This document shows positions 6,072 through 25,100 of a DNA stretch of 64,000 nt, piece after piece. Within the stretch, counting starts at the first letter, position 1; the number at the start of each line of letters is the position of its first letter. The notes under the pieces are model-generated. The model did no database searches. It was not told the origin of the DNA and saw only the letters and a list, made by a program, of their open reading frames with translations. A program made the position numbers and the translations under genes. The stretch comes from Candidatus Tidjanibacter gallistercoris (lineage in GTDB: Bacteria > Bacteroidota > Bacteroidia > Bacteroidales > Rikenellaceae): contig DXFY01000014.1 of the NCBI GenBank assembly GCA_019114205.1, forward strand, positions 1 to 64,000. Reading direction: 5' to 3'.

Positions 6072-7019
6072 ATGGAACCGATAATAGAGGCCGTACCGAG
6101 GGAACTCATAGAGAAGGAGCTCACTGCGGAGCGCCTGCTACGCGCGACCAACAATGCGGGCAATTTCATCTATACGGTGAAGGCCGGCGACGCGCCTAAT
6201 GTCATGCGGGAAATCGGCCGCCTGCGCGAGTTGGCTTTCCGCCAGGCGGGGGGCGGTACGGGGTACGGTGCGGACATAGACGAGCAGGACCTCGCGCCGG
6301 ACGGCTATACGCAGTTGTTCGTATGGGACCCCGTGGCACGCGAAATTCTGGGAGGTTACCGGTACATCATCTCCGATTCCGAGTATCCCCGGCACCTTTC
6401 CACGGAACATTATTTCCGTTTCAGCGACCGGTTCCGCCGGGAGATACTGCCCCATACCATCGAGCTGGGGCGGTCGTTCGTGCAGCCGCGTTACCAGCGC
6501 ACGCGCGATGCGAAGAGTCTGTACGCGCTCGACAATTTGTGGGACGGGCTCGGAGCGCTCATCGTCGAGAATCCCGAAAAGCAGTATTTCTTCGGCAAGG
6601 TGACCATGTACGGACATTACGACAGGGAGGCGCGCAACATCCTCATGTATTTTCTGCACAAGTATTTCCCCGACCGCGACGGGTTGCTCGAACCGCTGTA
6701 TCCCGTGGACATGGAGATAGACGTACCGGCCATGGAGCGCATCTTCACCGGCGGCAACTATGCGGACGATTACCGGACGCTCGTCAATGAGCTGCGCAAG
6801 CGGGACGAATTCATTCCGCCCATGATAAACTCCTATATGAGCCTTTCGCCTTCGATGAAGGTATTCAGTACGGTACACAATCCCGACTTCGGGGAAGTGG
6901 AGGAGACCGGAATCCTCATTCGGATAAAGGACATCTATCCCGAAAAGGTCGAACGCCATACGCGTGGCCTGTTGCAGAAACTCAAGGACAGAATACGTTC
7001 CGTTTCGGGCGGCGAATAA
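6072..7019 (+). CDS. glsB: Hemolysin-like GNAT N-acyltransferase, probable glycine-lipid synthase subunit
   Basis: A 315-residue protein of the OlsB/hemolysin-like acyltransferase type. The fold core is visible: a first motif RELAFRQAGGGTGYGADIDEQDL (about 52-74), then FVWDPVAREILGGYRYI, and the acceptor region ELGRSFVQPRYQ (131-142), the family signature. The C-terminal half (YFPDRDGLLEPL through PPMINSYMSLSPSMKVF) matches long OlsB-like proteins. The predicted reaction transfers a 3-hydroxyacyl group from acyl-ACP to the amino group of glycine. It sits 91 bases after the partner acyltransferase on the same strand. Annotation as ornithine-lipid synthase would be the alternative; in Bacteroidales the glycine-lipid role is known for this pair. 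Confidence 0.83.
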   Translation: MEPIIEAVPRELIEKELTAERLLRATNNAGNFIYTVKAGDAPNVMREIGRLRELAFRQAGGGTGYGADIDEQDLAPDGYTQLFVWDPVAREILGGYRYIISDSEYPRHLSTEHYFRFSDRFRREILPHTIELGRSFVQPRYQRTRDAKSLYALDNLWDGLGALIVENPEKQYFFGKVTMYGHYDREARNILMYFLHKYFPDRDGLLEPLYPVDMEIDVPAMERIFTGGNYADDYRTLVNELRKRDEFIPPMINSYMSLSPSMKVFSTVHNPDFGEVEETGILIRIKDIYPEKVERHTRGLLQKLKDRIRSVSGGE

Positions 7020-7809
7020 GGGCACCGGTTTCGGTACCGGCAGAGGATGTACGATATGTTTCGGGCGGGGCGACATGCGGTCGTTCCGCCCGAAGCGTAC
7101 AGGTGAGCGTTTCCGCCCGGTCCGTACCGCCGACCGTGGGGCGGGGCGTTTTGTTCTTTCGGAACGGTAGTCGCTTTTTCGGCAGACATTAAGAGTAATG
7201 CCGGGATTCTTTTCATCACGTGGCTTCGGCATATTTTCTAGAACGGATGGTGAGGCGGAATGTTGGGTAAGGCGATTGGTTTGCGAAACGAAGCGTATCT
7301 TGAAAATGAGCAGGGTGCGTTATTTGAAGCGGGGGCTTTTTGGATGCAGATGTCAGGTCGTGTGCGGGCGGGTTGCGGGGGGATGCCGTTCATGTTTCCC
7401 GGAACTACGGTCGAACGGGTGTCGTGTGTCAGGCGACGGTCGACGGTCTGTGCGTATAACGGGCCTGTATCGGGGCATGGAGTTCCCTTGCGGCGGATGG
7501 TGTAGGGTGCGGTGCGAAGAGCATGACGGGGAGGAGGTTGTGAAGGAGGCGGAGCTGTCGGGGGGCAGGCACTCCGAGGCGACAAGGGTTTCTGCACGGA
7601 GGTGCTTTCGGCTGGTTTTCGATACATGTGATTCGCACGGCTTTTTCTAATGCAGGGTATTCGCCGTGCGATGAGGCGCGTCTGCTTGGATACGCCAAGC
7701 GGCGAATAGGGCGCAGCACCGCCTGCGGAGAACGATTATCGCTGCCATGGCGGTGCTGTGCCTTGTTGTCCGGAGCTGAAAGACAGCCGGATGGAGGTAC
7801 GTTCGCAGA
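7020..7809. other. Geneless junction between glsB and the accessory island
   Basis: About 790 bases without a credible gene. Open frames exist on both strands (for example 7198-7650 plus and 7429-7719 minus), but their products are rich in Arg, Cys and Pro with no family resemblance. No clear terminator with a T tract was found for either flanking gene. The plus strand is markedly G/T-rich from about 7250 to 7640. Confidence 0.5.
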
Positions 7810-9723
7810 TTACTCGGCCATGCCTGTTGCCATCCAGTAAAAATGACATTCTTCGAATCCGACACTGCCTGTTGATGACAATTTGTTCGTCATTACCGTC
7901 ATTTGGCTGGCGCTATAAGACCTGATGACAAGCGACCATATCGCAGGATTCGCATCGCCCGTAAAAGGTGTCAAAGAGATACTGAACGGCGTAATGACGA
8001 AAGGTTTCGGGAACGTTATGGTCACAGGAGATGTCTGGTCTCCAGTCATGTATGCAAACTTACCCCACTGAATCATCAGTCCGGAAGGAAACTTTACATA
8101 TCCGTTCGTGCTGGTATTCAGGGATTCGGAACCTGCCAGCCATTCTCGCGCCGTACCGATTGTATAGATACGGCTGTATGTTTGCGGGGAGTGTGTGCTC
8201 GAAGCGCCCCCCAGCGCTTCGAGGCGGTAATATCCGCTGCGGAGGCGGGTAATGCGCCCTGCCCATATTCTGGCGGCTGTCGAATACGTTGCGTCGGGCT
8301 GGCCGACTGCATCGTGACTTGTAAAGCGGACGAATTCACCGTCTGCGAGGTTTTTCGTCTCGGTGCATGTCGAGGGGTTGAAAGTATCGAAATCCGTTAT
8401 CGTTATGGTCGGAATGGCGTCTTCTTTCCCGGCGGCGAGGTCGTCGGCATATTTTTTCGCATCATCGAGCGTGGTGGCCGCCACCCGGTCGGCATAGTCC
8501 GTCGCGGCATCGAGGGCGGTGTCGCCCACTTCGTCCACGTAAGTGCGCAGGGCGGCATCGTCGCGGGCGGCGGCTTCGGCGGCCTCGGTCAGCAGCAGCT
8601 GTTCCCGGAGCGCCGTATAATGGTTCGCACAGGCGATAAGTGCATCCCGGTCGTCGGCTGTCGTGGCGGGGAAGCCGTCCGTGGCATAGGACAGTTCCGC
8701 ACCGGCCGACTGCCCCTCCGCCGGCACATAGGGCACGTCGTTCCCCTGACCGGAGGTGTCCCGCCACAGGGTGGACGTGAGGCCGGCGGGGGTGAGGTCG
8801 AGCACGGCGCCGACCGAGACGATGCACAGCGTGCGAATCTCCAGCCACGCATCCGCGTCGTTTCCGACCTGCGTTATGGCTGTGTACTTTCCGGCAGGAG
8901 TTACATAGCTCACCGTCACGGCATCGTCCGTATTGGCCGGGAAGTCTTCATAGGTTTCTGAACCACTACGAGCCTGTATGAGCACGTTGCTTCTGTATTC
9001 AAACTCAATCAGCTGATAGCAGGCACGTTCGTCATCGTTGCTGTTGCGGAAGCTGTTGCTCAAAGAGAGAGCTTCAGCCGTTCCCCGCTCGAATCGGGCA
9101 TACGCGTCGGAAAAGCCGTTTGCGGTGGACAGGTTTGCCGAGGTTATGATTTCGCTGTAATTCCGGCCCCACGTTCCGGAGGCTTCCAGCCAATTGCCGG
9201 TCGGCCACTTCGAGGTCGGTACGTTCCGCCATACGTCCGGTACATGCCAGAGCTCCGGGTGGCAGCCGTTGTACAACAGGGCGATTTGCTCCTCGTCCAT
9301 CGCGAAGTCGAAACGGCGGGCGGCAACGAAACGGGATGCGGCTGTATTTTCCGAACCGCCCAGAATGAAGCGCTGCGGGTTGTGAATATAAGGGAACTGT
9401 GGAGCATCATTCACGACGGGGGTACCGTTAACCGAGGTGATGATTTTGTCGTCGCCGAAATATGAGAAGACCACAAGACAGAGCGTACCGGCGGGCACCG
9501 CCGCGCTCTGAAGCGTCAGTCCGCGGAACGTCAGGATAACATGGCCGTTATACTGAAGGTACGCCCCGTACCCGTGCGTGCCTTCCGGCCTTTCGATGTA
9601 GAGGGAGAGGGCCGATTCGGGAACCTGCTCCGGCGTGACAAAAAGCAGCACCGTCGTGTGCGGCCTGTCTTTGAAATCGAGTGTCAGCGCGGAATCGGAA
9701 GTGTTGAACAGACCCTTCCCCAT
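7810..9723 (-). CDS. Phage tail-fibre-like protein (LamG-like plus gp53-like C-terminal domain)
   Basis: A 637-residue protein with start at 9723 (MGKGLFNTSDS); the upstream extension to 9816 is Arg/Pro-rich and unlikely. The N-terminal ~200 residues look like a LamG/concanavalin-A-type sandwich, with strands such as TLCLVVFSYF and RFDFAMDEEQIALLYNG. A central region around 400-450 is an Ala/Asp-rich coiled coil (RDDAALRTYVDEVGDTALDAATDYAD). The last ~90 residues (GYVKFPSGLMIQWGKF, VTITFPKPF, then FYWMATG at the end) match the C-terminal tip domain of tail-fibre proteins of the gp53-like type. It should bind a host-surface receptor. It lies downstream, on the same strand, of a lysis cassette. 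No baseplate, tail-tube or chaperone genes are visible. Confidence 0.75.
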   Translation of the reverse strand: MGKGLFNTSDSALTLDFKDRPHTTVLLFVTPEQVPESALSLYIERPEGTHGYGAYLQYNGHVILTFRGLTLQSAAVPAGTLCLVVFSYFGDDKIITSVNGTPVVNDAPQFPYIHNPQRFILGGSENTAASRFVAARRFDFAMDEEQIALLYNGCHPELWHVPDVWRNVPTSKWPTGNWLEASGTWGRNYSEIITSANLSTANGFSDAYARFERGTAEALSLSNSFRNSNDDERACYQLIEFEYRSNVLIQARSGSETYEDFPANTDDAVTVSYVTPAGKYTAITQVGNDADAWLEIRTLCIVSVGAVLDLTPAGLTSTLWRDTSGQGNDVPYVPAEGQSAGAELSYATDGFPATTADDRDALIACANHYTALREQLLLTEAAEAAARDDAALRTYVDEVGDTALDAATDYADRVAATTLDDAKKYADDLAAGKEDAIPTITITDFDTFNPSTCTETKNLADGEFVRFTSHDAVGQPDATYSTAARIWAGRITRLRSGYYRLEALGGASSTHSPQTYSRIYTIGTAREWLAGSESLNTSTNGYVKFPSGLMIQWGKFAYMTGDQTSPVTITFPKPFVITPFSISLTPFTGDANPAIWSLVIRSYSASQMTVMTNKLSSTGSVGFEECHFYWMATGMAE

Positions 9724-10256
9724 GACCGCACCGGTGGGCTTCCGGCTCCGCCGCGTGGGGAGGAAGCCGGCACTCGTTCGCAGGCGGGCCGGGGTGCGGC
9801 GGGCCGGAAGGGGCACCGCGTCCGGGAGTGGCCTGCGTTCGTCTCCTTTATATAGAGGTGACGGCCAGCATGCTGCCTTCCCTCTGAGCGGCCCTTGGCT
9901 GGTGGCCGGCCTCCCTTTGTGCCTTGCCGTGCGGCCCGCGTTCGCCTCCTTTATATAGAGGTGACGGCCAGCATGCTGCCTTCCCTCTGAGCGGCCCTTA
10001 GCTGGTGGCCGGCCTCCCTTTGTGCCTTGCCGTACTGCCTGTGTTTGGTCTCTTTATATAGAGGTGGCGGCCAGCCTGCTGCCTTCTCTATGTGCGGCCC
10101 TCGGCAGGTGGCCGGCTTTCCCCTTGTGCCTGTCTGTGCGGTCGGTATCCGATACCCGGTTTGCCCCTGTGCGGGGGGCGTTGTTGTGTGCCGGGAGCGG
10201 GTGGGGGAACAGTTTGTGTCCGGTTATCCTTGTGTTGGCCGTGCGTTTCGACCGGC
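9724..10256. other. Repeat-bearing gap between the spanin-like and tail-fibre genes
   Basis: This gap contains the 103-bp tandem repeats described separately. The remaining bases (9724-9835 and 10141-10256) show no gene. Confidence 0.6.
9836..10140. repeat. 103-bp tandem repeat, about three copies
   Basis: Copies begin near 9836, 9939 and 10042, with an exact 103-base offset at the shared TTTATATAGAGGTG core. The first two are nearly identical; the third has diverged. Each carries a perfect or near-perfect palindrome CAGCATGCTG (CAGCCTGCTG in copy three). On the minus strand each contains CTATATAAAGGAG, an AT-rich box next to a Shine-Dalgarno-like sequence. The array ends 113 bases before the tail-fibre start codon. 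Confidence 0.9.
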
Positions 10257-10769
10257 TTACCGTCGCACCAGGCGCACGAGTTTCCATCCGGCGAAGAGTG
10301 CCCCGCAGCCGATGGCCAGGCCGACCGTCCAGCAGCAGATGCGCTGCCATGCGGTCGGGCGGTTCACTTCGACGACCGCTGCGGTCCGGTTCCGGTCGTG
10401 CGTCGAGGTCACCTGCCGTTCCAGCCGGTCGCGGAGCGTCAGGTAGACGGCCATGGAATCCACGGTAGCGCTGGCGGTCAGCACGTTGTCGCTTAGGTCG
10501 AGGCAGGGCGGGGGCATGCGCGCTCCGGCTTCGTATTCGAGCAGGCGCGCCATACGGATGCGCCCTGCCGAGTCGCATTCGAGCAGCGCTTTCACTGCGG
10601 CGCTGTCGGGAGCGATGCGTACGACCGTGTCGCGCACGGTCTCGGTGCGGGTAAAGACCGTCACGCTGTCGGTGTAGTGCGTCTGTGTGGTTTCGGCTGC
10701 GCGCCGGGCGCAGCAGCATGTGAGCGAAAGGGCCGCCCAGCATGCGGCAGTCATCGCGGTTCGTTTCAT
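10257..10769 (-). CDS. Small lipoprotein with C-terminal membrane helix, spanin-like phage lysis protein
   Basis: A 170-residue protein. The start at 10769 overlaps the stop of the lysozyme gene as ATGA. The N-terminus (MKRTAMTAACWAALSLTCCCARR) is a signal with Cys residues at the lipobox position. The middle is hydrophilic (DSVTVFTRTETVRDTVV, then SAAVKALLECDSAGRIR and a helical LTLRDRLERQV segment). A hydrophobic helix WTVGLAIGCGALFAGWKLV lies close to the C-terminus. Proteins like this sit in lysis modules of Bacteroidales phages. The two membrane-linking ends suggest a fused or u-spanin-like role in outer-membrane disruption; that role is inferred from topology and position, not from a recognised family. 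Confidence 0.6.
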   Translation of the reverse strand: MKRTAMTAACWAALSLTCCCARRAAETTQTHYTDSVTVFTRTETVRDTVVRIAPDSAAVKALLECDSAGRIRMARLLEYEAGARMPPPCLDLSDNVLTASATVDSMAVYLTLRDRLERQVTSTHDRNRTAAVVEVNRPTAWQRICCWTVGLAIGCGALFAGWKLVRLVRR

Positions 10770-11176
10770 GGTCGGTGCGTTATGAAAAGGTTCCATCCGC
10801 TACGTACTTCCTCCATGTCGGCCGCCACGCCGTTCTCGACGCGGCTCATGGCTGCCACCAGGGGAATCATCGTATCGCCGTGCAGCGTGTCGAGCGGTTG
10901 GTCGGGAGCCGTACCGCTTTGCCGTGCGACGGCGGCGATGTATGCGGCGGTATCGTTCTCCGATGCGGGGGCGTACCGTGCGAGCAGCGCTTCGGGCGTG
11001 TTCAGGCCGTACCGGTGCTGGTACGTATGGAGTACCACGAACATCGCCCGGTAGCCCCACGCCATCGATGCGAAACTCTTGAAGGCCGTATCGTTGCTGG
11101 GCACCTCCCCCATGTACCGGGTCTTACTGCGGCGTATATTCCCCGGATTGCGGTTCCTCAACCCTCTGCTGCTCAT
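10766..11176 (-). CDS. P5-type phage lysozyme/lytic transglycosylase
   Basis: A 136-residue protein opening with RGLRNRNPGNIR (4-15), the signature of the structural-protein-P5-like muramidase family, followed by FKSFASMAWGYRAMFVVLHTYQHRYGLNTPEALLARYAP, in which the family's conserved aromatic and helix pattern is clear. It should cleave peptidoglycan during phage exit. There is no signal peptide, so export would depend on the adjacent holin-like protein. It overlaps the holin-like gene by 53 bases at its 5' end and the spanin-like gene by 4 bases at its 3' end, a compact lysis module. The length is normal for the family. Confidence 0.85.
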   Translation of the reverse strand: MSSRGLRNRNPGNIRRSKTRYMGEVPSNDTAFKSFASMAWGYRAMFVVLHTYQHRYGLNTPEALLARYAPASENDTAAYIAAVARQSGTAPDQPLDTLHGDTMIPLVAAMSRVENGVAADMEEVRSGWNLFITHRP

Positions 11177-11471
11177 CGGTCTCTCTTTGTGAATTATATT
11201 CGAACAGTTTATTTAAAACAGGACATTTCGCCGAGGGTGTCCGGCACCGGAAAGCCTCCTGAATGACCACGCTTTTCTGCTCCAGTTCGCGTTCTTTGGC
11301 TTCCAGCTTCGCTTCCATGTTTTCCACTTTGCGGGAAAGGCGGTTTATCTCGTCCTGCAGCATTCCCACGATTTTGGAGGTCTGGTCTATTCTGCGACCG
11401 TTGCGGCCGAGCAGCCAGGTCACCACCGCCAGCGCTACGGGTGCTATTACGTTGATTATCCAGGTTTCCAT
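11124..11471 (-). CDS. Holin-like protein with one membrane helix and a coiled coil
   Basis: A 115-residue protein. Residues 5-22 (IINVIAPVALAVVTWLLG) form a single membrane helix at the very N-terminus, followed by a charged boundary (RNGRRIDQ) and a heptad-rich coiled coil (QDEINRLSRKVENMEAKLEAKERELEQK, about 39-66). The C-terminal tail is hydrophilic and contains three Cys. The layout fits small phage holin or holin-associated proteins of Bacteroidetes. Its 3' end overlaps the lysozyme gene by 53 bases, which supports a shared lysis role. I do not recognise a named family, so holin is inferred from topology and position. Confidence 0.6.
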   Translation of the reverse strand: METWIINVIAPVALAVVTWLLGRNGRRIDQTSKIVGMLQDEINRLSRKVENMEAKLEAKERELEQKSVVIQEAFRCRTPSAKCPVLNKLFEYNSQRETDEQQRVEEPQSGEYTPQ

Positions 11472-11498
11472 GCTTTTCTTGCGTTCGTATCGTTCCGT

Positions 11499-11690
11499 CT
11501 GTCCGGGGCCCAGCCCGCTGTCCTTTGCGGGCTGGGGGGGGCTGTGTTCCGGGAGCCTTTCCCGCCGTCCCCTGCGGATGGGGGCTGTATGTCCGGGGCC
11601 CTTCCCGCCGTCCTTTGCGGATTGGAGGACTGTGTTCCGGGAGTCCTTTCCGCTGTCCTTTGCGGACAGGGGGACTGTGTCTGCCGGGGA
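11499..11690. repeat. Degenerate ~45-bp tandem repeat, four to five units
   Basis: Units share the order TCCGGG, then CCCGCCGTCC (or CCGCTGTCC), TTTGCGG and GGGG-CTGTG. The TCCGGG boxes occur near 11502, 11548, 11592 and 11636, so unit length varies between 44 and 46 bases. A worn fifth unit follows. The changing unit length means no reading frame is kept across the array. Confidence 0.75.
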
Positions 11691-12528
11691 CTCCTGTCCG
11701 TCGTGTCCGAGTCTTTTACGGCGGCCGGTGTGTGCCTGTCTTCTGAGGGCCGGTTTTCCCCTGTGGTTGTCCTTCCCTCATTGGTCTCCTCCTTCCTGAG
11801 GGGCGGAGCCTTCCGGCGTGCGGGAGCGGTGCCGTTGACTGTTCGGCGTCCGTCCGCCCGATGCGGGTTGCCGTTCGGGGATGCCGGTCGAAGGTTTGCT
11901 GTCCCGTCCTCCGATTTTTTTGCAAACATAATGGCTCCGGAAGGCCGTTGCAAATAAGTTCTCAAAGGTTGAACGGAAGCGTCGATAACTTGTACAGGGG
12001 TGTTCCTCAATGTATTATAATGGGTGTTTTTACGCCGGAAATGCTGCCGTCCGCTGCTGCCTCTGCCCGTTGCTTCATCGGTGCGGACGTACCGGCGGGA
12101 AGGAATGCGCCCCGGTCGGAGGGAAGGATTGGAAGCGGATGTCCGTCGGAGGATGCTCCATCGATAGGACGTTTCGGTATCTTGGCAAGGAGGGGAGGGT
12201 GCCGGCATTCCGACCTCGCGGGCGGTCGGAACATGATGCCGGCGGCTTGCAGGAAGGGTACGGATGCCGGATAGGGTACGGTGTTGGGGCGTATCCGGAA
12301 ATGGTCTTGTTGCAGCCGGCACCTTTCTTCTTACGGTCGTGCTTGGGTGTGTGAGGCTTGGCCGGGCGCGGGAGCAAGAGGGAGGTTGCCCGGTGCGGGC
12401 GTGCTGAATGCGGTGTGGTCGGGTTTGGTTGTGTTCTGTCTGTTGAGGCTTGGCCGGGCGCGGTACGGTTGGGTTTGGTCGGAGCCTGCCGCAATCGGAA
12501 ATGGAGACGGAAGCGGGGCTGGAAGAAT

Positions 12529-12553
12529 GAAAAAGGCGGGATGAATCCCGCCT
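12529..12553 (-). terminator. Rho-independent terminator, minus strand
   Basis: AGGCGGGA (12534-12541) pairs perfectly with TCCCGCCT (12546-12553) around a TGAA loop. On the minus strand it is followed directly by TTTTTC. It implies a minus-strand transcript arriving from the regulator-like genes at 13157-14259. Confidence 0.75.
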
Positions 12554-12689
12554 GTCTGCATTGCATGCTGTGTCTGCTCCTGTGCTTGTTTCTGTTCCGT
12601 TGGGGAGGGGAGGTTGTTTCGGTTTGCGGCCGTGTCGGATGTTCTGCATCTTTTGCGGCCCGCATCCCCGCTCCCGGCGGGCCGCACGG

Positions 12690-12980
12690 CTTGTTGAAGA
12701 CAAACCGGAACGGGTTCCGGGCAGTTTTCGTGTTTCCGTCGGGCTGTCGTCTTTTGCTTCGCATTCCCGTTCCGGCGGCCGGGTTTGGGGAGCTGTTGGA
12801 GACAAGGCGGAACCAGCTCCGGCGGTCGGGTTCGAGGGGTGGGTGAAGACAAGCCGGAACCGGCTCCGGTACGGTGTCGTGCTGCGTTTCCGTTATCCGA
12901 TTCTGGGCAGTTTTCGTGTTTCCGTCGGGTTGTCGTCTTTTGCTTCGCATTCCCGCTCCGGCGGTCGGGTTCGGGGGGGC
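12690..12980. repeat. Degenerate direct repeats, 186-base offset
   Basis: A segment of about 70 bases starting GGGCAGTTTTCGTGTTTCC at 12719 recurs at 12905 with few changes. A shorter module of the form GAAGACAA-CCGGAAC-GG-TCCGG occurs three times, near 12695, 12800 and 12845. No coding explanation was found. Confidence 0.8.
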
Positions 12981-13156
12981 GGGCTCTGCGGTGCGTATTC
13001 CGGGCCGACGGCTTTCGTTCCGTAACCGCTGGGCGGCTTCTCCGAACTCCGTATTCCGGGGTTCCGCTGCGTTCCCTGTACCGGCCCGGCGTTGCCGCGG
13101 GCCGTCCGTCCGGATGTCCGCGGACGGTGCCGGAGTGCTGCGGCGCATTCCGGAGG

Positions 13157-13387
13157 TCAGTCGTCCCGTTTGTCGGAAGGGGTGTCCTGAGGGTTATCCA
13201 TCTGTTTCAGCAGGGCCCGTGCCGGACAGGCAAGGTAGTTGTAGAACGTGGTGCGCGAAATCCGGTACCTTGGATAGATGACGTTCCGGTAGACCCATTC
13301 CTGCGTGACGCCCCTGTCCGTGTGTTCGAGGACGATGGTTTGTATGTCCGCTATCAGGGTCAGTTTATTGCGCTTGTTGTAGGCCAT
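13157..13387 (-). CDS. Small HTH-like protein of the phage-like island
   Basis: A 76-residue basic protein. It starts MAYNKRNKLTLIADIQ and then reads VTQEWVYRNVIYPRYRISRTTFYNYLACPARALLKQ. The segment RISRTTFYNYLAC has the look of a recognition helix, and the gene resembles small proteins found in Bacteroidales prophages and other mobile regions. It lies in the same orientation as the lysis and fibre genes and downstream of another regulator-like gene. The codons read like a real gene, unlike the Arg/Pro-rich frames around it. A role as a transcription regulator is an inference; I cannot name a family. Confidence 0.6.
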   Translation of the reverse strand: MAYNKRNKLTLIADIQTIVLEHTDRGVTQEWVYRNVIYPRYRISRTTFYNYLACPARALLKQMDNPQDTPSDKRDD

Positions 13388-13776
13388 ATCCGGATTGGTA
13401 AATGCTTTGGTCTGGGGAGTTCCTCCGCACGCGCCGTTCCGGGCAGCCGGTGCCGGCGGGGTTCTGCGGCTGGGGGCCCGGTTCGGCGCGTTGCTGCGGT
13501 GCGGGGGCTGTCGGGACAGGACAGGTTTGCGGCTGGGAAGTGCCGTGTGCCGTTCTGCGTGCGGCCGGGGGGCGGTCTTATGGCCCCTTGTTGTTTGGGG
13601 ACAGCGGTTGTGCCGTCTCTGTCTATTGGGTGCGCCCCCTGTTCGGTTGCGGGCATCCCCGTCTGTTTATCGACGGCACTGCCTCTTTCTATTGTTCGGC
13701 AGAGCGCCTTTCTCCCTGCTGGGGTGTGCCGCCTCTGTCTGTTGAGTGTACCTCGTTTTCGGGGTTTCCCGTTCCT
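13388..13776. other. Gap between the two small regulator-like genes
   Basis: About 390 bases with no credible gene, repeat or hairpin that I could identify. Confidence 0.5.
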
Positions 13777-14259
13777 TCACCGGCCGGGTGTCCCGTGTCC
13801 GTTGCAGTCGCTCCGCGTGCCTTCCGTGCATAGGGCGGAATCGGTGCGGCATCGAATGTCGGGCCCGTGCGCCAGGGTCTGTGCCTCGCAGAGTATCGCC
13901 GGCCAGTATTCCAGAGTCACGCCGCAGTACGTCTTTATCGGAGCACCGTCCTGTCGCAGTTGCGCGCTGTCGGTCGTACAGTCCAGCACGACGCTCACCC
14001 CGTTGCCGAAAGTTTGTACGATGCCCGTAAGCCGGCCGTCCTCGCGCAGGTACTCGGTCGCGCAGTCGGGCACGAATCCGGCCGGGACTGCCAGCCGGTA
14101 CATCTCCGTGCCGCCCGCCTCGCGTGCCGCCTCCCTGATGCGGTTGGCGAGCGGGCTGTCGGTTCGGTAACGCAGCGCCGACCATACCGTCACGGCACTG
14201 ACGCCGAACGCACCGACTAACCGACGCTTCTCCCTTGCGGGTAATTCTATGTATTTCAT
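13777..14259 (-). CDS. Regulator-like protein of the phage-like island
   Basis: A 160-residue protein. The first ~50 residues (MKYIELPAREKRRLVGAFGV, then SAVTVWSALRYRTDSPLANRIREAA) have the spacing of a helix-turn-helix, with the SAVTVWSALRYR segment as the likely recognition helix. A second part (VQTFGNGVSVVLDCTTDSAQLRQDG, then GVTLEYWPAIL) reads as a short beta domain; similar N-termini occur in Bacteroidales mobile elements. The last ~30 residues are Cys/Arg/Thr-rich and may lie beyond the conserved part. An AT-rich tract (14340-14400) upstream could hold its promoter. It is the first gene of the minus-strand island cassette. Confidence 0.6.
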   Translation of the reverse strand: MKYIELPAREKRRLVGAFGVSAVTVWSALRYRTDSPLANRIREAAREAGGTEMYRLAVPAGFVPDCATEYLREDGRLTGIVQTFGNGVSVVLDCTTDSAQLRQDGAPIKTYCGVTLEYWPAILCEAQTLAHGPDIRCRTDSALCTEGTRSDCNGHGTPGR

Positions 14260-14641
14260 GACCGTCGCTTTTGTACTTTTCGTTTGTTTTCCGTGTCTTC
14301 ACTCGCCACTTAATCGTTAAGGGCAGTACAAATATAGAGAAGACAGGCCCGTATGTCAAGTGTTTTGATTAAAATATTTAATGAAAATAAGCAATAATTT
14401 ATTCCAAAAAAAGACCATTCGGCCGTGGCAGGTTGTTGCGGGTCATTGGGTCGGCGGATTGAACCGGGCAAGGGAGCCGGTCGGCCGGTGCTGGCATTCC
14501 ATCGAAACGGATTCGGTCGAGGCTGAGCGCCGCCCGTTATTCGGCGGGAGCGTGCCAGCCACGGCAGTATGCTGCAAAACGCTGCTGTCCGGTTGGCGTT
14601 ATCCGAACCGAAGGGTTCAGCAGCCTGCGTACCGGCAGGGG

Positions 14642-15112
14642 GGCGGCGCATCCGGTTCCATGAATCCGTTGCTTCACCGCCGGGCTTTCCGTGCTGTTAA
14701 ACGAGAGAGCGGGATACCGCCCGTCCCTACTTGTGGTTCCGAGCCCCGTCGTTGCGCCGTGGGGAATATGATACGGTACTTCCGCCTTTCCCCGTGTTCG
14801 TGCATCCTTCCATCCCTGAGTACTGCTCAGTGTTTCGGCAATACCCTATATCCGACCGGGGGCGGCGCATCCGGTTCCATGAATTCGTTGCTTCACCGCC
14901 GGGCTTTCCGCACTGTTAATCGAGAGAGCGGGATACCGCCCGTCCCTACTTGTGGTTCCGAGCCCGCTTTTGTTTCCGCCCCCCCGCCATTGCGCCGCGG
15001 GAATATGACCGGTCACTTCCGTCTTTCCTGTGTTCGTGTATCCCTCCGTCCCTGAGTGCCGATGCGGTACGGTACCGCTCAGTGTCCCGGCGATGCCCTG
15101 TATCCGGCAGGA
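14642..15112. repeat. Two-copy direct repeat, 219-bp offset
   Basis: The block GGCGGCGCATCCGGTTCCAT at 14642 recurs at 14861. The first ~105 bases of the copies are almost identical, including GAGCGGGATACCGCCCGTC, which can fold into a small hairpin. The second halves are related but carry insertions. It is non-coding by composition. Confidence 0.85.
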
Positions 15113-15455
15113 AACAGGGCGCCTGCATCCGTTTTCCCGATGTACCTATATATTAATTGCCGTTCATCCGATTTCCTGTGCCTGCTGCGTATATCGATAT
15201 CCCTGCGTCCGTTCGCCTCGGTAGCGGGCAGCAGGCACGTGCGCAGGTTACCGGTACCCGCCGGATACGTCGGATATGCTGCCGTTCCGCCGTGCTCCGA
15301 AAGCCATCCCGTCGGCACCTTCCGCACATGCGCACTTGCCGAAACCGGTGTGCCGTTGTGTCCTTCGACAGGATGCCGCATTGGATGGAGTCCCACCGCC
15401 CGTGTACTGTGTCGTATGCCGCAGCGCCTCTTCCGTCTTGTGGCGATACCCCCAC

Positions 15456-15850
15456 CCGCAACCATCCCCTTTTTGGTCGCCTCCTCCTTTGTCCGGCCCA
15501 TCCGCAACCATCCCTTCCTTTGGTCTGTTGCCTCCTTTGTCCGGCCCATCCGCAACCATCCCTTCCTTTGGTCTGTTGCCTCCTTTGTCCGGCTTACCCG
15601 CAACCATCCCTTCCTTTGGTCTGTTGCCTCCTTTGTCCGGCTTACCCGCAACCATCCCTTCCTTTGGTCTGTTGCCTTCTTTGTTCGTCCACCCACGACC
15701 ATCCCTTCCTTTGGTCTGTTGCCTCCTTTGTCCGGCTTACCCGCAACCATCCCTTCCTTTGGTCGGCCTCCTTCTTTGTTCGTCCACCCGCAACCAACCT
15801 TTCCTTTGGTCGGTTGCCTCTTTTGTCTGGCCCATCCGCAACCGGTCTCC
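15456..15850. repeat. 48-bp minisatellite, eight copies plus a partial ninth
   Basis: Units start near 15456, 15502, 15550, 15598, 15646, 15693, 15741 and 15788, with a fragment at 15836. The core units are almost identical; the edges have diverged. In each unit GCAAC and GTTGC can pair. On the minus strand each core unit contains AAGGAAGGG directly followed by ATG, opening the 16-residue phrase MVAGKPDKGGNRPKEG. A second minus frame gives WLRVSRTKEATDQRKG. There are no unique spacers, so this is not a CRISPR array. Confidence 0.93.
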
Positions 15851-16842
15851 TTTCGGGGCCAGACCTTTCTGTTGCCCCGCTCCCTGCCGATGGCTTTTTC
15901 GCGTAGGGCCGGTGTTGCCCTGCAGTGTACCTACGCTTCGTCGCGGTCGGCAGGGGGCATTTCCTCCGGCGCACAGGATTTTTATGGTCGTTGGTGTGTA
16001 TTGGGTTGGTTATTAGTATGTTGTCTCGGAAATTGAAGATGCCGTCCCAGGCATTTTCCCCCTTCTGTCAGCCGTATTTCGGGGCGGAATGTCCGCAAGA
16101 CCGGCGCTTTCCGTCGGTTATGACAGGAGCAAAAACCGCATTCTGTCCGTCCATTTTCACCGTTTCGTCCGTCCATTGTGTCCGGGCAGTAGTCCGTCCA
16201 TTCCGATGTCTCTACGTACTTTGGTGACGACAACATGCTGTAAGTTAGTTGTTTGAACTCGATGCCGTTCCGGGAAAGGCTCCGACCGTATGCTGACGGA
16301 ACATGCCCGGCCTGCTGCTCCTTCTGTCCGCACGGGAAAGCCCGGTGCAAAAGCCTGCCCGTTCCGATTTTTCAGCTGGTTTTCGGCTTCGGATGCTGCG
16401 ATGTATGAAAGGGAGGAGTGTACGTTATTATGGCCTCGATGTAAGGTAGTTGCGAACGGAACCGGATGCTGCGGCAAAAAGACGGAGGGAACGTCCTTGC
16501 CTGTATTGCGACAGGCAGGATGTACATCGTTCGGCCTCGCCGCAGCGACCCATACATCCGGCCTTGCGCCGCATCGAATGCCGCCGGACATTATGCTGGC
16601 TGATACCGGAGTCATACATTTCGTTTCATGCCGTTCATGTCCGCTCGCATGCCTCGTGCACTATCATTCACATGGTTGCATCCACCGACGAATCATAATC
16701 CATCCTCTTCGTTTTCTGTATTATGAATAGCGCAGCAGGTATTCTTCGCATGGGATTTTTTCTTTGTCTGTCCGGGAATTTGTCTTTCCGTATCCCGAAG
16801 TTCGTGCCCGGTGCCGGATTATGATATGCGGCGATTTCCGAC

Positions 16843-16850
16843 TACATTTG
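16843..16850 (+). promoter_or_regulatory. -7 box (TACATTTG) of recQ
   Basis: It matches the Bacteroidetes TAnnTTTG element and ends only four bases before the recQ ATG at 16855. A good TTTG -33 box at the right distance is not seen. Confidence 0.4.
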
Positions 16851-16854
16851 CGGT

Positions 16855-18771
16855 ATGAACAGAAGCGCCATTACGGACGCGCATCTTGCGGATGCGTTGA
16901 AGCGGTACTGGGGATACGATGCGTTGCGGGGTACCCAACCCCGGACGATACGCTGCGTGCTGGACGGCCGCGACACGCTCGCCCTGATGCCGACCGGCGG
17001 TGGCAAGTCGCTGACCTACCAGTTGCCCGGCCTGCTGATGGACGGGCTGTGCGTGGTCGTGACGCCGCTCGTGGCCCTGATGAAAGACCAAGTGGATTCG
17101 CTCCGGCGGCGGGGCATATCGGCCGTTGCCATCCACTCCGGCATGAGCCCCCGCAACATCGACATCACTCTCGACAACTGCGTGTACGGCGACATCAAGT
17201 TCCTGTACGTATCGCCCGAACGGATAGCGGGCGAATTGTTCACGGTACGGCTCGCCCGGATGAACGTGAATCTGATTGCAGTGGACGAGGCGCACTGCAT
17301 CTCGCAGTGGGGATACGATTTCCGTCCCGCCTACCTGCGCATCGCCCGCATGCGCGAGCTGCTGCCGGATGCCCCGGTGCTCGCGCTGACGGCATCAGCT
17401 ACGGAACACGTGGCGCAGGACATCATGGACAAGCTGCGGTTCCGGGAACCGAATGTCGTGCGGAGCGATTATTCCCGTCCGAACCTTTCCTTTTCCGTCC
17501 GGCGTACGGACGACCGGAAGGGGCAGCTGCTGCGGATAACGGAGCGCGTACCCGGCAGCGGCATCGTCTATGTCCGGACGCGGGATGCCGCCGAGCTGCT
17601 CGCTGCCGAGTTGAAGGAGGCGGGGGTGAAGGCGGACTATTACCATGCGGGCCTGCCTTACGGCGAGCGGAATGCGCGGCAGAACGAGTGGACGGAGGGT
17701 ACCACGCGCGTGATGGTGGCGACCAATGCGTTCGGTATGGGTATCGACAAGCCCGATGTCCGTTTCGTGGTGCATTACGGGCTTTGCGCTTCGCTGGAGG
17801 AGTATTATCAGGAAGCTGGCCGGGCGGGGAGGGACGGCCGCCGGTCGTATGCCGTACTGCTGGTCGCTTCGGACGACCGGGAACGGCTCGCACGCCGTTT
17901 CGCTTCGGAATTTCCGTCCATCGCACAGATAAAGGATATCTACGTCCGGTTGATGAATTATCTGGGCATCGCCATAGGCGAAGGGAAGTTCTATTCCGTG
18001 TCGTTCAACCTGTTCGACTTCTGCGCCCGCAACAGACTTTTTATAGGAACCGTGCAGAACGCACTGAAAATCCTCCAGCAGAACGGCTACCTCGTTTTTA
18101 CGGACGACGAGGAGAATCCCGCCCGGCTGATGTTTTGCGTCAGCCGCGATGACCTTTATTCGCTGCGCGTTCAGCGCGACGACCTGGACAACATCCTGCG
18201 GACCATCCTGCGTCTGTATACGGGGGTGTTCACCGGTCTGCGTCCGGTGGACGTGCAGGAGATGGCCATCTACACCGGCTATACCGAGGAACGCGTGATG
18301 GAACTCCTCAAGACGCTCTGGCGGCTGCATGTGATACGTTTCGTGCCGAAGAACCGCAGCCCGATGGTCTTTCTTTCCGACAACCGTCTGCCGGATGCCG
18401 ACATCTATATCGCCCCGCAGACATACGATGTGCGCAAGGAGATGGCTGCCGGGAGATTGGATGCCGTATTCGATTATGCCGAAAATACGGAACGTTGCCG
18501 GAGCGTCGTGCTGCAGGAGTATTTCGGACAGCAGGATGCCGTTCCGTGCGGCGTGTGCGATGTATGCCTGGCCCGGCGCAGGCGCGGCGGCGTGTCGGAG
18601 GATGTTCGGGACGCCATTCTGCGCTTCATTCCCGACGGAGGTATCGGTCTGAAGGAGCTGGCCGGTAAGTGCGCCGCACCGCAGGAGCGGGTGGCTGCCG
18701 CGGTGGATTCCCTGATGGTGGCGGGTAAAATTTCGGTGATGCCGAACGGATTACTCGTGATTAATCGGTAA
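16855..18771 (+). CDS. recQ: ATP-dependent DNA helicase RecQ
   Basis: A 638-residue superfamily-2 helicase that unwinds DNA 3' to 5' in recombination and fork repair. Helicase motifs are in order: MPTGGGKS (Walker A, 45-52), TPLVALMKDQVDSL, DEAHCISQWG (144-153, DEAH plus the RecQ aromatic loop), LTASAT, and motif VI QEAGRAGRDG. The zinc-binding domain is complete (ERCRSVVLQEYFG with CGVCDVC, about 546-568), followed by a winged-helix region. The C-terminal part after the zinc site is short, and I see no clear HRDC domain. It is followed after 45 bases by a DEDD exonuclease gene, so the two may be co-expressed. Confidence 0.96.
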   Translation: MNRSAITDAHLADALKRYWGYDALRGTQPRTIRCVLDGRDTLALMPTGGGKSLTYQLPGLLMDGLCVVVTPLVALMKDQVDSLRRRGISAVAIHSGMSPRNIDITLDNCVYGDIKFLYVSPERIAGELFTVRLARMNVNLIAVDEAHCISQWGYDFRPAYLRIARMRELLPDAPVLALTASATEHVAQDIMDKLRFREPNVVRSDYSRPNLSFSVRRTDDRKGQLLRITERVPGSGIVYVRTRDAAELLAAELKEAGVKADYYHAGLPYGERNARQNEWTEGTTRVMVATNAFGMGIDKPDVRFVVHYGLCASLEEYYQEAGRAGRDGRRSYAVLLVASDDRERLARRFASEFPSIAQIKDIYVRLMNYLGIAIGEGKFYSVSFNLFDFCARNRLFIGTVQNALKILQQNGYLVFTDDEENPARLMFCVSRDDLYSLRVQRDDLDNILRTILRLYTGVFTGLRPVDVQEMAIYTGYTEERVMELLKTLWRLHVIRFVPKNRSPMVFLSDNRLPDADIYIAPQTYDVRKEMAAGRLDAVFDYAENTERCRSVVLQEYFGQQDAVPCGVCDVCLARRRRGGVSEDVRDAILRFIPDGGIGLKELAGKCAAPQERVAAAVDSLMVAGKISVMPNGLLVINR

Positions 18772-21286: not shown

Positions 21287-21371
21287 GGAAAGATGGCAGA
21301 GTGGTCGATTGCGGCGGTCTTGAAAACCGTTGAGCTGCAAGGCTCCGGGGGTTCGAATCCCTCTCTTTCCG
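21287..21371 (+). tRNA. tRNA-Ser (anticodon UGA)
   Basis: An 85-base cloverleaf. The acceptor stem GGAAAGA pairs with TCTTTCC (21364-21370) and the discriminator is G21371. The anticodon loop reads CTTGAAA, giving anticodon TGA. A long class-II variable arm (TGAGCTGCAAGGCTC region) is as expected for serine, and the T arm contains GGTTCGAATCC. CCA is not encoded. No integrated element with duplicated tRNA 3' sequence is evident. Confidence 0.96.
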
Positions 21372-21372
21372 C

Positions 21373-21485
21373 CGAAGATGATTCATGCCGGAAGGCATGG
21401 GTTCGAAACAGTACGGGCAACCGCAAGATTTCTTGCAGGTTGCCCGTACTGCTTCGAACCGTCTTGGCAGGACGCATCATCTTCG
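21373..21485. repeat. 113-base nested inverted repeat abutting tRNA-Ser
   Basis: An outer stem CGAAGATGAT (21373-21382) pairs with ATCATCTTCG (21476-21485). An inner stem of about 28 bp pairs 21400-21428 with 21431-21460 (GTTCGAA-CAGTACGGGCAACC and its complement, plus GCAAGA/TCTTGC). The outer arm begins two bases after the tRNA. There is no T tract, so it is not a standard terminator. Confidence 0.85.
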
Positions 21486-21800
21486 TGTAGCCTTCCCTCT
21501 TTCGGGAAAGACGAGCGAAGCGAAGTCAATCCCGAAGGTTGCGTGTGTAGTCGATTACCGGGGTGTGTCCGGAAATGCTGTAACCGTTGCAGGCAATCTT
21601 GCAGGTTGCCCGTACTGCTTCGAACTGTCCTGGCAGGACGCATCATCTTCGTGCAGCCTTCCCTCTTTCGGGAAAGACGAGCGAAGCGAAGTCAATCCCG
21701 AAGGTTGTGTGTGTATTCGATTACCGGGGTGTGTCCGGAAATGCTGTAACTGTTACAGGCAATCTTGCAGGTTGCCCGTACTGCATTCAACCGTCCGCGA
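21432..21800. repeat. 166-bp tandem repeat, two full copies and a partial third
   Basis: CTTGCAGGTTGCCCGTACTG occurs at 21432, 21598 and 21764 with an exact 166-base offset. The two full copies are roughly 95% identical by eye. Each contains GGGAAAGACGAGCGAAGCG followed by CAATCCC, which can form a further hairpin. The first 29 bases of the unit are the right arm of the large inverted repeat. Confidence 0.92.
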
Positions 21801-24050: not shown

Positions 24051-25100
24051 ATGAAAATCAGACTTTTGTGTGCGGCGCTCCTTGCAGGGGCGTTGGCTGC
24101 GGCCTTCTCGCCGAAGGTCGGTGCGTGTACGAGGGTGGTATATGTCGGGCCGGACGGTACGGTGCTTACCGCCCGTTCGATGGACTGGAAAGAGGACAGC
24201 CGGACGAATTTGTGGATATTTCCGCGCGGCATGGAGCGCAGCGGTGCGGCGGGCAACAACCCCCTGAGGTGGACTTCGCGTTACGGCAGCGTGGTGGCTT
24301 CGGCCTACGATATTTGCAGTACCGACGGGATGAACGAAGCAGGGCTCGTCGCCAACCTGCTGTGGCTCGCCGAGTCGGCGTACCCGGAATGGGACGGTAC
24401 TTCACCCGGTCTGTCGATAGCCGCCTGGGTGCAGTACCTGCTCGATACCTGCGGTACGGTGGACGAGGCGGTCGCCGCAATGGAGAGCGGCCGGTTCGAT
24501 GTGGTGTCCGGGCGGATGCCCGACGGTTCGCGTATGGCGACGCTGCATCTTTCCGTTTCGGATGCGTCGGGCGACAGTGCCATATTCGAGTACATCGACG
24601 GGAAGCTGACCGTGCACCACAGTCCGGAGTACCGCGTGATGACCAACTCGCCCGTATTCGACCGGCAGTTGGCGCTGGACGATTACTGGCAGAACATAGG
24701 CGGATTGACGTTCCTGCCGGGCACGAACAGGGCTGCCGACCGCTTCGTGCGGGCCTCGTTCTATGTGGGGGCCCTTCCTCAGACGCCGGACACGCGGCAG
24801 GCGGTCGCGGGGATTTTCAGCGTGATACGCAACGTTTCCGTTCCGCTCGGCATCAGCATTCCCGACCAGCCCAATATATCCTCGACGCGCTGGCGTACGG
24901 TTTCCGACCAGAAAAATCGGGTGTATTATTTCGAATCGACGCTTTATCCCAACATTTTTTGGGTGGATATGGACAAGGTGGATTTTGCGGAAGGGGCTCC
25001 GGTCAGGATGCTCGACCTGGTGAGCGGCAGAACCTATGCCGGCGATACCGCTCCGCTGTTCGTTCAGGCCGAACCTTTCGAGTTTCAGCAGGCGGACTGA
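24051..25100 (+). CDS. Exported choloylglycine-hydrolase-family (linear amide C-N) hydrolase
   Basis: A 349-residue Ntn-hydrolase of the bile salt hydrolase/penicillin V acylase family. A signal peptide (MKIRLLCAALLAGALAAAFSPKVGA) ends right before Cys26, so cleavage would expose the catalytic N-terminal Cys (CTRVVY). Other family positions are present: the Arg/Asp of ARSMDW, the TDGMNEAGL strand (about 90), the Asn of MTNSPVF (about 198), and the Arg of SSTRWRTVSDQKN. It acts in the periplasm on a linear amide; conjugated bile salts are a plausible substrate in a gut Bacteroidales, but penicillin V or N-acyl amides cannot be excluded. A strong terminator follows at 25130. Confidence 0.9.
   Translation: MKIRLLCAALLAGALAAAFSPKVGACTRVVYVGPDGTVLTARSMDWKEDSRTNLWIFPRGMERSGAAGNNPLRWTSRYGSVVASAYDICSTDGMNEAGLVANLLWLAESAYPEWDGTSPGLSIAAWVQYLLDTCGTVDEAVAAMESGRFDVVSGRMPDGSRMATLHLSVSDASGDSAIFEYIDGKLTVHHSPEYRVMTNSPVFDRQLALDDYWQNIGGLTFLPGTNRAADRFVRASFYVGALPQTPDTRQAVAGIFSVIRNVSVPLGISIPDQPNISSTRWRTVSDQKNRVYYFESTLYPNIFWVDMDKVDFAEGAPVRMLDLVSGRTYAGDTAPLFVQAEPFEFQQAD

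Follow-up and report, generated by a model that had tools for sequence, protein, structure and literature searches.

The 48-bp minisatellite in the genome of the gut bacterium Candidatus Tidjanibacter gallistercoris raises the question of whether a tandem repeat whose units carry a purine-rich stretch and an ATG is a gene for a repeated peptide, an array of protein-binding sites, or neutral DNA. The three readings were offered in an earlier note on the window, which is the whole stretch of 64,000 nucleotides analysed here (contig DXFY01000014.1, positions 1 to 64,000). The last of them was best supported, whereas the repeat-peptide gene gained nothing from the frame, codon, start, or promoter evidence. 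The array is very probably neutral and non-coding, a minisatellite that lies in a spacer poor in genes within what is probably a decayed prophage between a GNAT-domain gene and recQ, and it is best read as ordinary, lineage-specific repetitive DNA.

The array was detected by Tandem Repeats Finder (TRF) at 15451–15843, with a period of 48 bp, 8.3 copies, and a score of 541, which is far beyond chance and bears out the tandem array that the earlier note had described. The same interval was also detected at period 95 with a score of 544, and it was composed of eight overlapping 96-nt copies at a spacing of 47 or 48. When the minus strand was cut at CCAAAGG, seven full units of 47, 48, 47, 48, 48, 48, and 46 bases were obtained, with partial units at both ends. 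Three of the four 48-base units were identical and the fourth differed at three positions, while both 47-base units shared the variant block GTGGACGAACAAAGAAGG. The period of 95 probably arises because the two kinds of unit alternate in the first units. The left part of the unit was nearly invariant across the seven full units and the right part was variable; the invariant part could mean constraint or merely recent copying. The units, of a size within the minisatellite range (about 10–100 bp), were arranged head-to-tail in several copies and adjoined each other, without the unique spacers that separate the repeats of a CRISPR array. Bacterial minisatellites, or the VNTR loci of MLVA typing, share this design: units some tens of bases long follow each other head-to-tail within a spacer, and they occur in variant types and with small indels. 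However, VNTR loci vary in copy number among isolates, as would be expected of a neutral minisatellite, whereas the present array is known from one genome; should isolates prove to differ in its length, it is a possible typing marker at most.

The surrounding locus was compared by blastn with those of five relatives (L032–L036) out of the 22 congeners. In all five, the matches ended at 6947–7015, close to the end of the GNAT-domain gene (6072–7019), and restarted at 16808–16940, in or close to recQ (16855–18771). Only 154 bases separated the flanking matches in the nearest relative, L032, compared with 9.8 kb in the window, and about 0.9 kb separated them in each of L033 and L035. None of these loci was reported to carry the 48-bp array; the TRF output was a single short row for each of L033 and L035, and it was empty for the remaining three. 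The features of the stretch are as follows.

7016–16807, no strand: stretch without blastn match in the five relatives, read as an insertion
7810–9816, minus strand: tail-fibre-like gene (C-terminal domain Gp53-like)
10257–10796, minus strand: 179-aa phage-associated gene, whose partial relatives adjoin endolysin genes in viral contigs
10766–11176, minus strand: endolysin-like gene (phrog_873, E 1.9e-41)
11124–11471, minus strand: holin-like gene (weak phrog_1296 and phrog_3671 match, and order beside the endolysin in relatives)
13157–13387, minus strand: 76-aa ORF with a gene-like codon score, function not recognised
13777–14259, minus strand: 160-aa gene (phrog_16858, unknown function)
14260–16854, no strand: 2,595-bp spacer without recognised gene, containing the array and a 108-bp direct repeat
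15451–15843, no strand: 48-bp-period minisatellite (unit cutting, TRF, overlapping copies)

The phage-type genes, together with the absence of the stretch from all five relatives compared, suggest that the 9.8-kb stretch is probably the remnant of a prophage, with spacers rich in repeats. The holin, endolysin, and 179-aa genes followed the identical order in two IMG/VR loci (L086 and L087) with Bacteroidales-type phage lysis modules. Unlike these modules, the stretch had long repeat-rich spacers and no recognised head, terminase, or integrase gene among the 20 of its ORFs scanned against PHROGs, which included only some of the short ones; TRF in turn found no array in L086 and L087. PHROGs classes both the endolysin match (phrog_873) and the tail-fibre match (phrog_2557) under head and packaging. 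For the 160-aa gene, 60 pattern-matching stretches in the viral_contigs collection gave no confirmed phage relative, and none was found in the phages collection. As candidate attachment-site or target-site repeats, the end regions of the stretch shared direct matches of 13 bp and 11 bp only, and its ends are placed approximately.

The spacers of the phage-like stretch were 790, 440, 1685, 389, and 2595 bases long, and the last, which holds the array, also contained the 108-bp direct repeat (14639–14746 and 14858–14965). Direct or tandem repeats unrelated to the array occupied 9830–10131, 11502–11680, 12771–12869, and 14639–14965, with units of 103, 45, 47, and 108 bp, respectively. Several unrelated arrays in the spacers of one phage remnant raise a question of their own. 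At 10001–16000, over most of the phage-like stretch, the plus strand was strongly biased to T over A, with an AT skew of about −0.3, a stronger bias than most of the window shows.

The array DNA was found in one of 23 genus genomes and one of 268 family genomes, in both cases the source genome itself. No exact 22-base core occurred in genome_contigs or in viral_contigs, collections from which records near the source genome may be missing, and the array sequence had no match in the phages or plasmids collections. Each flank of the array matched once in its own genome and had no copy in the 22 other genus genomes. Within 377,718 bases of the source genome (the window and 20 further stretches), 22 arrays were detected, nine of them scoring at least 100, and four of these nine lay inside the 9.8-kb stretch. 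The genome G002 gave five arrays, one scoring at least 100, in 319,001 bases (16 stretches), a contrast in density that is merely suggestive because the choice of window was not random.

These observations are consistent with a prophage that would have entered the lineage between the GNAT-domain gene and recQ and then decayed. Growth of the array was most likely due to slippage during replication or to unequal recombination of neighbouring units, a mechanism that fits the identical 48-base units and the common 47-base variant. The recurrence of the ATG and the purine stretch would then reflect nothing more than their chance presence in one ancestral unit. ORFs, starts, and Shine-Dalgarno-like purine runs in a tandem repeat should be regarded with caution, as copies of one chance event.

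An improbable alternative is that the array forms a regulatory or protein-binding element of the phage, with putative DNA sites or RNA hairpins that would affect replication or a promoter nearby. The one positive sign for the protein-binding option of the earlier note was that the left part of the unit hardly varied. A short inverted repeat, GCAAC/GTTGC, was present in most units, and the RNA of the whole array folded better than shuffled sequences, with z-scores of −3.75 for the minus strand and −3.34 for the plus strand, although shuffling destroys the repetition and repeats multiply any weak hairpin. When a unit was shuffled and doubled, 102, 136, and 71 of 1000 sequences folded equally well (minus A, plus A, and minus B, respectively), and this single-unit control takes away most of the whole-array signal. 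The inverted repeat was broken in the unit at 15714. A hairpin function was therefore rejected, as the single-unit control was ordinary despite the strong whole-array z-scores, and good evidence that selection maintains a structure in the array is lacking. No replication or regulator gene was recognised adjoining the array, and its sequence was unconserved in the genus, family, genome_contigs, viral_contigs, phages, and plasmids searched.

Somewhat less probable still is a putative cis element of the phage remnant, such as a group of binding sites or of hairpins in RNA, which would set transcription at the junction of the phage element and recQ; the arrays of the spacers would then reflect a shared function, not decay.

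There is also a slight chance that the length of the array is partly an assembly artefact. The source genome (2.03 Mb) is a draft in 77 contigs, and short reads are commonly less than 393 bp long, so the copy number is uncertain. However, the units differed from each other and each flank had a single match in its own genome; it is therefore very likely that a tandem array, whatever its length, really exists.

The neutral, non-coding reading was also compared with the coding potential of the array. The earlier note had taken the unit to be an exact multiple of three, with a 16-residue basic phrase repeating throughout. This is true of the 48-base units and fails for those of 47, 47, and 46 bases, which break the frame within the array, so that no frame carries the phrase from end to end. 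The phrase MVAGKPDKGGNRPKEG stayed in register over four consecutive full units at most, from 15667 to 15478, and in the last two of these DG replaced GK. The minus-strand ORF 15079–15750 started within the array and read the phrase once before the frame slipped, and the ORF 15248–15655 read it twice exactly and afterwards in altered forms. Frame-breaking unit lengths, which the earlier note had named as a refutation if seen in related strains, were already present in this copy, and the unit lengths did not keep the single frame of a repeat-peptide gene.

The plus strand of the array contained no stop triplet in any frame, and three plus-strand frames of 750 to 981 nt therefore span the array; a strand without stop triplets gives long open frames. 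On the minus strand, one frame of 852 nt spanned the array. It had no start codon upstream of the array, the first start being inside. Only three stops were present on the minus strand within the array, and most units would therefore be unable to terminate and re-initiate.

Codon usage was scored in bits per codon with a model trained on eight window genes. Three accepted genes, which were among those used for training, scored +0.40, +0.36, and +0.23, and six genes of the phage element, none of them used for training, scored +0.07, +0.10, +0.05, +0.15, −0.01, and +0.12. The six ORFs over the array scored −0.46 (−0.52 in the stop-to-stop version), −0.32, −0.84, −0.40, −0.61, and −0.78, all below every accepted or phage gene. 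Two antisense control ORFs reached +0.21 and +0.16, which shows that a gene is not proved by a positive score alone. The negative scores speak against coding, as the codon usage does not resemble that of the genes of the genome. In each frame, two codons distinguish the two 48-nt unit types, and no more than one of these changes is synonymous; such numbers are too small to carry much weight. The array ORFs tested had no Pfam or PHROG match, and no relatives were found elsewhere, the 268 family genomes included.

Seven minus-strand ATGs, at 15750, 15702, 15655, 15607, 15559, 15511, and 15465, were preceded by a purine-rich stretch, and they fell in two frames by position arithmetic (15750, 15702, and 15465 versus the other four). 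The earlier note had assigned a Shine-Dalgarno-like sequence and an ATG to every core unit, but the full unit at 15809 had TTG in place of the ATG of the others. The purine run AAGGAAGGG, replaced by AAAAAGGGG in the last case, touched the ATG with zero spacing; GGAAGGG abutted the ATG with no spacer bases, which is an abnormal Shine-Dalgarno distance. A loose Shine-Dalgarno-like motif was present at 2 of 12 window gene starts inspected. Shine-Dalgarno sequences are described as generally unused in Bacteroidia (PMC9976891).

Four sigma-70-like sites were found in 14300–16900, compared with 1.1 expected from shuffles, and none was within the array. The nearest one upstream of the array on the minus strand (16456–16427) was about 600 bases away. 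The Bacteroidetes-type promoter motif consists of a −33 TTTG with a −7 TAnnTTTG. This pair was absent from both strands of 14260–16860, where a lone −7 box occurred once per strand.

A minus-strand gene with its own start in each unit, yielding a 16-residue basic peptide by re-initiation, is thus scarcely credible and was rejected on the frame breaks, codon usage, and start context, even though seven ATGs follow purines and one frame holds through four consecutive full units, with too few stops for re-initiation, no promoter-like site just upstream, and no relatives also against it. The array probably yields no protein.

Elsewhere in the window, an Rfam scan gave one match, a tRNA. Just downstream of the tRNA-Ser gene (21287–21373), a 166-bp unit was repeated 2.2 times with 95% matches at 21431–21796. 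A gene of the choloylglycine hydrolase family (24051–25100; PF02275, E 2.2e-46) possibly encodes a bile salt hydrolase.
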